A stretch of 64,000 bases of DNA, taken from Loxodes magnus. Taxonomy: Eukaryota; Ciliophora; Karyorelictea; Loxodida; Loxodidae. The translations under genes were made by a program, and so were the position numbers. Numbering within the stretch: position 1 is the first letter of the stretch; every line of letters starts with the position of its first letter. The stretch is taken from the NCBI GenBank assembly GCA_946699065.1, contig CAMPDV010000021.1, positions 930,001 through 994,000 of the forward strand, in the 5' to 3' direction. Of this stretch, positions 5,536 to 62,737 are shown in pieces. Under the pieces are notes generated by a model. It had not been told where the DNA came from, made no database searches, and saw only the letters and a program-made list of their open reading frames with translations.

Positions 5536-8043
<2,508 letters not shown>

Positions 8044-8214
8044 TGAGTTTTCAAGACAATTTACTTTTACAATTAAATTTATTCTTAATTCCTCTTTAAC
8101 CTTATCCTATCTCTATTTCTTTACTCCTTTACACTACAGCTAAAATATTCCCTCTTAATGATATTTATATAAAGCAATATTCAAAATAATTAGCGATTAA
8201 AGCAAACTGTATTT

Positions 8215-19767: not shown

Positions 19768-22302
19768 ATGGTGGATGTTAGAATGGAGTCGTCGATGCTG
19801 GATTAAAAACTTTACCAGTATGCACTTAAGCCTGGTGAGTATGATTTTAGCAAGTGCAAAAAGGTGCAGTTGATAACGAACTGTTATCCAATCAAAAACA
19901 AGCAAATGACAACTATATTTTAGTATCATATTGATTTTGAGCCTTAGATAGAGCCTCTCAATAGAAGAAAGCAATAAGCTGTCATCTCTTCGCTCAGAGA
20001 ATAGTTACAAAAGGAAATAGGCAAGAAATACATATACACAGGTTAGATTTTCTATTGTACCTAAATGTTTATAGAGACAGTCAGAAGATTGGAAAATAAT
20101 GAAGATTAGACTGTGATTTTCACTTACGTAAATTAAGTAGACGTTTCTTCAATTTATACTAAGGAATAACCTCAAATTCTATAATTTCTCAATTAAGTTG
20201 TCAAATGAGCCATGAGGACTTAAAACTACCTGGAATTAACAACTAAAAACAAGTTTTTTGATCAAAATCAATAAAGAGAAGTATACGGCTAAAATTTAGT
20301 CGTATGGAAGGGGTGGCAAATAACTTTAAAGCCTTATATATCTGGATAGTATATTCAAGTAGACGCATGTAGCAGAATTCTGAGGAAGGACTGACTATTG
20401 TAAGAAATGAATATAATATGGGATTAATGTCATAACTAGGAAGTTTTTAAAAGAGAAGTAGAGAATCTCGTTATTGGAAATTCTGTATGAACTCCTTATA
20501 AAAACAATAAAATATACAGAATTGACGCCATTAGATGGGATATGAATCCTATAAGCTAATTTTTAAAAGATGGTAAATAAATTACTTTTATTGAATATTA
20601 TAAGCAAAACTATAACTTAGAAGTTACTGATTTCAACTAGCCTTTGCTAGAAAATAGATAGAGAAGGACTAATCAATAAATATTCCTTATTCCAGAATTT
20701 GTCAACTTATGTGGCATGTCTGAGGATTTAAAGTCTGATTATTAAGTTATGTCAGCTGTAGCTTAACATACACGAATATCACCTTAAACTAGGAATAGCA
20801 ATCAGCAATAACTAGTTGAAAAATTAACAAATTAATAACTGAAAGCTTCTTAGCATCTTTCAGAGTGGAATCTTGAAATAGGATAGAACCCTAAATAAGT
20901 AAGTGGATATTAATTTGATGGTGAATAAGCTACGTTTGGTAATAATATATCCATTCAAATACAGGGAAATATAAACCTCAAATAGCATATATATGAACAA
21001 ATCCATCTAGAAAGATGAATAATTGTAGGTTAAGGATTAAACGAAGTACATGAATTCGTCTAAAATTTGTATTAATGCATGATTACATATGGAGTTAATA
21101 TATCAGAACCTAGAACAATTATAGTTGCAAGATAAAGCTAAAATGAATGTGTTAACTTCAAGAATGCTATAATGACAATGTCACTATAAGAAGTAAAGTA
21201 AGCTTAGATTATAGTAGTGCTAATATCTAGAAACTAAAAAAGAACAGTTTATCAATTCATTAAGAAACTCCTTACTGTAGAAGTGGGAGTAATTTCGTAG
21301 TTTGTTGTCTACTCAAACTTAAATAAAAACAAGATGTCAGTAATAAGTAAGATTGGAATGCAAATCTAAGCAAAACTTAATGCTAAATTATGAACCATTC
21401 AAAAACCATAGTCGCTGATGTCTAAAGAGTTACAAACTCTTGTAGTGGTGGGTCTTGATACTACTCATGATACTGTAAATAGAAATGAATCTTGAACTGC
21501 TCTAACAGCTTCCTATTCTCCTGATTTTACTAAATTTTATGGATTTGTTTTTAAGAATGAAAATGGAGGATAAGAGATATAGAATAAATCTCTTAGTGAG
21601 GTATTTTTTTAACTGATTGGAAAATATTATAGCTTATTCAAAACTAATGTTCCAAATAAATCAACTGAATATTACATAAATTGACTACCTCAATAGTTTT
21701 TAATCTATAGAGATGGAGTTGCTGAGTCAATGTATAATCAAATAATGGATAATGAAATTAACTAAATAAAGGCAGGAATTTAGAAAATTAGAAACTTTGG
21801 AAAGGAATGAGAAACTTATAACCCTAAAATTACCTTTGTTGTTGTGAATAAACGTATCTAACAAAGGTTTTTCTAAGATGAGGGATAGAATTTATAAACT
21901 GAATAAAAAAGAGGCTTATAGCTGAAGTAACAATCCGGAAGGGGATAAGGATATTAAGAATTTATATAGCAAGGGTCTAAAATTACTAATCCATTGCCAG
22001 GAACAGCTATTATTGACTAAGTAACTCATGCGTTTTATTATGACTTCTATCTAGTACCCTAATAAGTTACTTAAGGAACTGTTACACCTGTTCATTACAC
22101 TGTTCTAAAGGATGAAATTCAAATTCCAATGCAAGATTTGGTTCATTTATCCTACAAACTTTGTTTGCTATACTATAATTGGATGGGACCTATTAGAATT
22201 CCAAATTGCCTTATGTACGCACATAAATTGGCGTTCTTAGCAGGACAGTATCTTCATATCTCATAGAACAAGTGCTTAGATGACTTAATGTGGTACCTTT
22301 GA
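19768..22302 (+). CDS. PIWI: Piwi/Argonaute protein with PAZ, MID and PIWI domains
   Basis: 844 residues in one unbroken frame. PAZ ends near residue 315-335 with the Piwi-clade signature FVNLCGMSEDLKSDY and a HTRISPQTR motif. MID begins near residue 415. PIWI follows, with catalytic Asp564 (VGLDTTHD), Asp649 (YRDGV) and His776 (TPVHYTVL), so slicer activity is expected. YRID near VWTPYKNNK and the TPLPG-like NPLPGT are also family motifs. Eight in-frame UGA codons are read as Trp. Two align with Trp highly conserved across the family: residue 417 (LERWIIV) and residue 542 (AKLWTI). UGG Trp is also used. UGA at 22300-22302 ends the protein where Piwi proteins end. In ciliates Piwi proteins carry scan RNAs guiding genome rearrangement; that role here is inference. 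Confidence 0.95.
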
Positions 22303-60493: not shown

Positions 60494-62737
60494 TCATATT
60501 TTCAGTCTAAAGTTCTTTAAATTTTTTGAAGACTAAAGGAATGTTTCATCAATCCACTCCATAACTTCCTTTTTATTGGATAATACAACTTTACAGTTTT
60601 TATTAGCATCTAATACAATTTGAGGTACAACTAGATTCTTAATGGAAGTTGATTAATACTCCTTATAGTAGATATTTTGAATTTTTGTTGGAAGCTAAAC
60701 TCTTAAAATGTGACTTTGTTTTGAATCCTTTTATTTCTTTGATCTTGTTACTAAGTTCTAAATAGTTTTGTTTTACTATCCAGTAGCTTCTCAATAAGTA
60801 GAAGCGTTATAAGCTAAATGTACCACTCTTCAAGCTAAAGGAACTATAAATTTTTTATTATAAACTTCTTGGAATACTTTCTATATTCATTCTGTGTGGT
60901 CTTCTCACTAGTAATTAAGAACAAAGGTATCAAATACATACTTTGGAAGTAAATATGAAGCTGCTGGCTATCATAATCCATATCAATTTCATTTTTAGTT
61001 CACATCAATATCCTATCTTTAGCACTTAGCATGAAAAGGAGTTCCAAGTGAGGCGAAACTTACAGTTTTGCCTAAATAAGGATTTTAAATTCAAAACTTA
61101 TATGTATAAGTCATGAACTCATATGCATCTTAAGAAAACTTCAAATCATCTTCTGTATAAAGAGCAACTGGAGATTTCATAAACCCAAGAGTAAAGTTCA
61201 GAATATAAATCTAGTGTCTGTTAATTCTTTGAAACCATCTATAGAGAAATTTTTAATAAGGAGTTTATATTTAAAAATGATCAGGCTACTCAGGGAAATA
61301 CAAATGCACTATATTAAGTTTCTTTTGATAGCTTTTTATTAGATTTTGTATTTAACTGGAATTTCCCTGCTAAGAAATGACTATAATAGTTTCATTAATC
61401 TTTCTTACTTCTAATAGCGATTTCAATACTTGAGAAATGTAGTCAGTTCTTTTATAAGTTATTATACATATTGGAATAAAATGATTTGGTAACTTTTCAG
61501 CTATTTTTTAATAGTTGCTCTTAAACTTCTCGTAATATGGCGTAGGATCTAGAAGTCAGAAATCTGTAACATTTCAAGAATCTTTATTTTAAGCATTATA
61601 ATACTCCATTCCCTCATCATTCTTTCTTTCTATGAAATCAACTTTTTTAGCTAAATTATATGAAATCTCTGATGTTAGATTTACAGTTCAAGGCTCTTTT
61701 TGGTAGCAAAAATTAAATCCCTTTTTAGAGAAAGATTCATTAGTTTTCAAAGAGTTATAGTAGAAGATGCCATAAGACTTTCAGTCATTAGTTTTAGCTA
61801 CTCTCTTTTCAAAATTAGCATAAAAGACTTTGTCTACTTATATATTATTACCCTCTAGTATACTTTGAATTTCTCATTTCTTTATTATTTTGTTTATGAG
61901 AATGAAGTCGTCAAACCATCCATTAAAATGAAATCCTACTTTCTCTGTTAAGTTACGATTAACACTTTCTTTTTAGATAATTCAACTTCCTAATCTTAAA
62001 GACTGGCCTCCTTATATTAAGCGATAGGTTTAAAAATTTTAGTATACTAGCTATCCATTTATGTAAAAATCTACCTTTTACTTCGTTCTAAAGTTACCTC
62101 CAAGAGCTGTGAAAACTACTGCCATATGATTTCATTATTCTAGTTTTATATCTGCTCGAATTTATAAAACTTAGCACTACTTATCATTTCCAAGTTCCAT
62201 GGAAAGCTAGCTTTCGTTAACATAGATTGAGTATCCTCAATGGAAAATTAAACTACCACATCCATAAACGTTATTACTTACTAGAGTTTGTATCTTATTA
62301 ATCATTTTATCTCTCTTAAATCATAAAAGCAAAGTTATTTCAGGAAAGTCAAGAGAAGGATAATAAGATGCCACTCTTAACTGTTTATCAACAGTTGAAT
62401 AATATGATATTGATTACTTGAAATACCTATCTATAAAGCTCTCTTCTTTCAAAGTACTTTGGTTAGTTCTACTTTCATAAATTTAGTTTTATATCCTACT
62501 TTCCTTTTACTCTCTATGAACTTAAATAGTCTCTTAATTCTTTATTCTATCTTGCTTTCCTTTATTATCGCTTATGCTAGTATTTTATAACATAACAACT
62601 TGTCTATCTGCCTTCTAAATACTTATGTTCTAAAATTTGAGAGTAGAAACTGCTTTATCAGATTTGTTGGATAAAAGAGAGAAAAAAGAAACAAGGAAAA
62701 GAAAAAAGAAAATGACAGGTATAATTTTCCTATCCAT
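60494..62737 (-). CDS. Golgi glycosyltransferase: LamG-like domain fused to a GNT-I/POMGNT1-type GlcNAc transferase
   Basis: 747 residues, one exon. Residues ~5-25 are a type II signal anchor (IIPVIFFFLFLVSFFSLL). Residues ~120-310 form a LamG-like jelly-roll (TLVSNNVYGCGSLIFHW, QWNHMAVVFTALGG, DFYINGQLV, FHFNGWFDDFILI). The catalytic part from ~residue 410 is GT13-like: IPICIITYKRTDYISQVLKSL, then IIVISQQGN, and ALYTEDDLKFSQDAYEF (the EDD metal/nucleotide motif, ~527-529). SLGTPFHAK and WYGLWQPAASYLLP follow. Seventeen in-frame UGA codons are read as Trp, including the hallmark LamG Trp at residue 202 (62134-62132); only about three Trp are UGG. The stop is taken as UGA 60496-60494; a later UGA is possible. 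Donor and acceptor are inferred from the family. Confidence 0.9.

Follow-up and report, generated by a model that had tools for sequence, protein, structure and literature searches.

Dual-meaning UGA in a Piwi gene of the ciliate Loxodes magnus, consistent with the published karyorelict code

Introduction

The available part of the L. magnus genome paper assigns karyorelict ciliates, including Loxodes, an ambiguous genetic code (NCBI table 27) in which UGA is the only stop codon and also encodes tryptophan (PMC11441545, Seah et al. 2024). An older survey gives, in its accessible portion, UAR as glutamine and UGA as stop for Loxodes, and UGA as tryptophan is not listed there (PMC6935857). According to the accessible text of the genome paper, UGA and UAA, but not UAG, are depleted ahead of the true stops of L. 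magnus, and the dependence of the stop meaning on poly(A) proximity is also taken from this source (PMC11441545). A corresponding idea has been put forward for Condylostoma magnum (table 28), where termination is held to be favoured by a nearby poly(A) tail and the protein that binds it (PMC4967479, as far as available).

Within the same limits of the source, C. magnum resembles the case described here in having UGA as tryptophan and stop by context, and a tRNA-Trp(UCA) was undetected there too, whereas UAA and UAG are also stops in that organism and the Piwi ends of Loxodes show UGA alone (7 loci; Swart et al. 2016, PMC4967479). The nonstop code of Blastocrithidia, in the available parts of two papers, shares with Loxodes the reading of UGA as tryptophan and a tRNA-Trp(CCA) with a 4-bp anticodon stem, but differs in UAR, which is glutamate, and in the stop codon, which is UAA (PMC13092985, PMC12153298). 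The 4-bp-stem tRNA of Loxodes is itself already in print; the accessible passages of two papers credit it to a critique from Swart and co-workers (PMC13092985, PMC12005148).

The present analysis concerns a Piwi-family gene (gene A) lying in a 64-kb stretch of the L. magnus genome, hereafter the window (C21:930001-994000), and the whole assembly of 705,730,643 bases in 7843 contigs was searched for related loci. The earlier note, made from the letters of the window alone, had assigned the dual use of UGA together with UAR as glutamine to the karyorelict code, and this assignment agrees with table 27 as given in the available part of PMC11441545. Since the dual UGA of this Piwi gene follows the published code of the group, the observation is correct yet ordinary, and the code itself is already known. 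Indeed, gene A shares with the karyorelict table the reading of UAR as glutamine, of UGA as tryptophan or stop, and the depletion of UGA and UAA before the stop that spares UAG; against the accessible text of PMC11441545 no difference was found. The gene confirms the published code and makes no addition to it. What it offers is a clean single-gene example of a codon with two meanings, with UGA and UGG swapping between two copies that share a UGA stop. The word Piwi occurs three times in the main text of that paper, in each case in the reference list, and gene A itself may be undescribed, though it is an ordinary member of its family.

Results and discussion

A Piwi gene with eight internal UGA codons

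The frame of gene A is open through 844 codons once UAA, UAG and UGA are counted as residues (Table 1). It contains 47 TAA and 22 TAG codons beside 24 CAA and 5 CAG, and its 15 tryptophan codons divide into UGA (8/15) and TGG (7/15). The eight internal UGA codons counted in the earlier note were all recovered.

The best match of the protein among solved structures was Piwi-like protein 1 (E 2.2e-91). Piwi chains as a group ranked first (2.2e-91 to 8.9e-69), followed by HrAgo1 (4.7e-43), while other full-length Argonautes scored about 1e-23 or weaker. Common to gene A and the animal Piwi proteins (Piwi-like protein 1, Piwi-A and Siwi) are the PAZ and PIWI domains, the residues fitting DEDH and a C-terminal YL. 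The DEDH slicer tetrad of Piwi proteins is matched by D564, E603, D649 and H819, as judged both from motifs and from the alignment with Piwi-like protein 1. Gene A differs from the animal proteins by an extra insert of ~25 residues (about 710-740) ahead of the conserved NPLPGT stretch and by its 78 codons, including the terminal UGA, that are stops under table 11.

Table 1. Features of the L. magnus Piwi gene A. Positions refer to the window; gene B is the second copy of the gene.
Feature	Position	Strand	Remarks
Piwi-family CDS, gene A	19768..22302	+	844 codons + terminal UGA, table 27
PAZ domain, residues 214-337	20407..20778	+	Pfam PF02170, E 6.3e-27; coordinates converted from residues
PIWI domain, residues 481-829	21208..22254	+	Pfam PF02171, E 5.5e-63
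Internal UGA, residue 147	20206..20208	+	UAG (Gln) in gene B
Internal UGA, residue 209	20392..20394	+	AGU (Ser) in gene B
Internal UGA, residue 241	20488..20490	+	UGA in gene B
Internal UGA, residue 417	21016..21018	+	UGG in gene B; Trp in 3 inspected structures and on all 5 other contigs reached
Internal UGA, residue 542	21391..21393	+	UGG in gene B; Trp in 3 inspected structures and on all 5 other contigs reached
Internal UGA, residue 576	21493..21495	+	UGG in gene B; Trp in 2 metagenomic Piwis
Internal UGA, residue 639	21682..21684	+	UGG in gene B
Internal UGA, residue 681	21808..21810	+	UGA in gene B
Terminal UGA, codon 845	22300..22302	+	directly after the C-terminal YL; gene B also has UGA at this codon

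Three structure alignments were inspected out of 55 matched sequences, and in all three residues 417 and 542 face tryptophan; the other six UGA sites stand opposite no conserved tryptophan in those structures. A search of a large protein database returned two distant homologues, both metagenomic Piwis with 24% identity, which carry tryptophan at 417, 542 and 576. The claim that 417 and 542 coincide with conserved tryptophans was thus borne out by the structures, and it was equally borne out by the distant Loxodes Piwis and by the second copy described below.

Splicing was considered as a way of removing the UGA-bearing stretches from the message. Loxodes introns are very short, with a mode of 17 bp in the available part of PMC11441545, and two GT...AG stretches, of 17 nt and 20 nt, do span the UGA at residue 147. 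The excision of either would shift the frame, however, and none of the remaining seven UGA codons is covered by a GT...AG stretch of 15-31 nt. Moreover, the second copy aligns without a gap across all eight sites and has tryptophan at six of them, and we give the intron reading an exceedingly small probability.

Codon meanings from a second copy

A second copy, gene B, was found at C145:576024-578555; its protein is 80% identical to that of gene A. Aligned gap-free over 845 codons, the copies are identical in 672 of the 845 columns, among them that of the stop. Opposite the eight internal UGA codons of gene A, gene B has, in order, TAG, AGT, TGA, TGG, TGG, TGG, TGG and TGA, that is, tryptophan at 6/8. 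The reverse comparison of the six internal UGA codons of gene B gave TGG, TGG, TGA, TGG, CAT and TGA in gene A (tryptophan at 5/6), and every UGG (7 in A, 8 in B) faces tryptophan in the partner copy. Because UGA and UGG exchange at tryptophan positions between the copies, they behave as synonymous codons. The probability that at least six of eight randomly placed positions would hit the 14 tryptophans of gene B is 1.7e-10. A tabulation of the residues opposite the UGA codons, which the earlier note had proposed, is therefore clearly non-random. Residues 147 and 209 of gene A and 428 of gene B face a non-tryptophan residue in the partner, and these three are read as ordinary substitutions. While 417 and 542 are conserved sites in their own right, the case for 241, 576, 639 and 681 lies in the tryptophan found at those positions in the second copy.

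The same alignment bears on the UAR codons. Both copies have glutamine in 83 columns, and in 28 of these UAR in one copy is paired with CAR in the other, in agreement with the earlier assignment of UAR to glutamine. Overall, the codon-by-codon comparison with gene B supports UGA as tryptophan, UGA as stop and UAR as glutamine.

It has also to be considered whether the internal UGA codons specify some other residue, given that the meanings of UGA elsewhere include selenocysteine and cysteine. The residues opposite the eight sites in gene B are tryptophan (six), glutamine (one) and serine (one), and cysteine appears in distant paralogs in a single instance across the eight sites, at 576. With tryptophan widely conserved at 417 and 542, a meaning other than tryptophan is extremely improbable.

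Were UGA a stop codon only, eight of them in frame would be nonsense, and gene A might be taken for a decaying pseudogene with chance stops. The substitution pattern between the copies (pN 0.118 and a saturated pS of 0.765; pN/pS 0.15) speaks otherwise: such a low pN beside a saturated pS indicates strong purifying selection on gene A. The 844 codons are free of frameshifts, the residues fitting the slicer tetrad are retained and UGA and UGG swap at conserved tryptophans, so that decay of the gene is to be regarded as extremely improbable. As judged from these sequence features, gene A is almost certainly an ordinary, functional L. magnus Piwi gene written in the ambiguous code of NCBI table 27. 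It illustrates that a long Piwi gene can hold eight UGA codons while under strong purifying selection.

Piwi-family matches occurred at 11 places in the genome, four of them on contig C160. The distant comparison included 16 Piwi locus sequences, partly overlapping, on five contigs. On all five other contigs whose alignments reach residues 417 and 542, tryptophan is present at both, encoded by UGA or UGG. The other six UGA sites of gene A are mostly met by non-tryptophan residues or gaps in the distant loci. Conversely, 9 of the 26 UGA codons of the distant loci face tryptophan in gene A (one of the 26 stands against a gap), a smaller share than the 21 of 33 for UGG codons; low-identity alignments, such as that of C397 (22%), may partly account for the lower value of UGA. 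In its accessible text, the genome paper reports no evidence of editing-associated small RNAs in L. magnus (PMC11441545).

Termination at the last UGA

The alignment to Piwi-like protein 1 extends to the final residue of both sequences (844 in the query, 870 in the chain), and therefore the terminal UGA sits at the end of a Piwi protein. This is the position at which the frame had been said to end, and gene B stops at the same codon. Ungapped identity between the copies was 87% across the last 150 nt and 42% over the 60 nt past the stop.

The C-terminus could be placed in seven Piwi loci, namely genes A and B and five others, the alignments of C147, C56 and C397 having ended early. In this one gene family, the codon after the C-terminal leucine is UGA in six of the seven loci, UGG in one and UAA or UAG in none. 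Their final 30 codons contain six UAG but neither UGA nor UAA, counts that are non-independent since the loci are paralogs, and UAG is found at 10-18 codons from the end in 6/7 loci. The earlier note had proposed context-dependent termination, and the lack of UGA and UAA over the 30 codons before the end, with UAG present there in 6/7 loci, is compatible with that proposal.

These ends also bear on a usage like that of table 28, with UAA and UAG serving as additional stops as in Condylostoma. At certain Piwi loci the stop does have a UAA shortly behind it, as in the TGATAA of L050 and L007. On the other hand, neither UAA nor UAG is the first codon past the conserved C-terminus in any of the seven loci, and in six of them a UAG lies at the short distance from the end given above. 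UGA is, moreover, stated to be the only stop of L. magnus in the available part of PMC11441545, and we consider a table 28-like code very improbable and table 27 the appropriate one.

The base following the codon (+4) was tried as a stop signal and rejected. It is G after the stop of gene A and also G after the coding UGA codons 147 and 681, so the +4 base alone cannot separate the two uses.

Two further observations concern the ends of genes. The Piwi copy L004 (C160, about 269.9 kb) has TGG replacing the terminal UGA, and its frame meets the next UGA at the 259th codon past the C-terminal leucine; it is possibly a decayed copy or one with an extended protein. A tandem UGA UGA, a possible back-up stop, ends both the enolase gene (window 8041-8046, + strand) and the Piwi copy L005.

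Tryptophan tRNAs and eRF1

The earlier note had proposed a search for a tRNA-Trp(UCA). A strict pattern for such a tRNA, applied to the whole genome, gave no matches (a tRNA whose D arm differs, or one of mitochondrial origin, would escape it); a pattern identical in shape but with CCA picks up the array copies at the array loci described below. A looser pattern produced 190 matches, compared with 83 in the backward control; among the 100 listed, 18 lay outside both arrays, and ARAGORN called no tRNA at the 10 of these 18 places to which it was applied. What the genome does carry is a tRNA-Trp(CCA) whose anticodon stem is shortened.

These genes form tandem arrays, for which the copy numbers given here cover tRNA-Trp alone. 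One array on C67:482324-491201 has 48 copies by pattern with a unit of about 187 bp, including one copy with a small D-arm deletion, and an additional truncated piece lies at the array end. On C148, from 155465 onward, ARAGORN called 31 tRNA-Trp(CCA) genes in the first 10 kb, 30 of them in an array with a 241-bp unit; as the count covers the 10 kb taken, this array has at least 30 copies. The fifth pair of the anticodon stem, 27-43, is broken in both, being A27.C43 in the C67 array and U27.C43 in the C148 array. The pairing was judged by eye on the tRNA-Trp(cca) genes called by ARAGORN; a free-energy fold of the bare sequence came out without the cloverleaf. The tandem arrays of tRNA-Trp genes are the sole mildly fresh point of this analysis.

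Following the papers cited above, the 4-bp-stem tRNA-Trp(CCA) would read internal UGA codons by near-cognate pairing, and eRF1 would prevail at the last UGA owing to the nearby poly(A) tail and the protein that binds it. It is conceivable, if unlikely, that the dosage provided by the arrays allows the near-cognate tRNA to win over eRF1 at UGA codons inside genes, with poly(A) proximity tipping the balance at the end.

As for the release factor, eRF1 is represented by two near-identical genes (L059 and L060) about 35 kb apart on C196, both with the NIKS motif kept. A third PF03463 match, on C2, is a putative Pelota.

UGA in the rest of the window

An Rfam scan of the 64-kb window at the gathering threshold gave zero matches. 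The protein-coding content was assessed by a codon-usage scan in which UGA was neutral, trained on the Piwi and eRF1 loci, and the segment ends are accordingly predictions. Ten coding segments were predicted, with a total of 42 UGA and 33 UGG codons. The predicted Piwi segment accounts for 8 UGA and 6 UGG, leaving 34 and 27, respectively. The enolase segment has 0 UGA and 4 UGG, and the DnaJ segment 0 and 2. A GNT-I-like segment (window 60542-62314, - strand) contains 16 UGA and 3 UGG; it is either exceptionally rich in UGA, or a decayed gene, or a segment with wrongly placed bounds. When the Piwi and GNT-I-like segments are both set aside, 18 UGA and 24 UGG codons are counted in the other predicted segments of the window.
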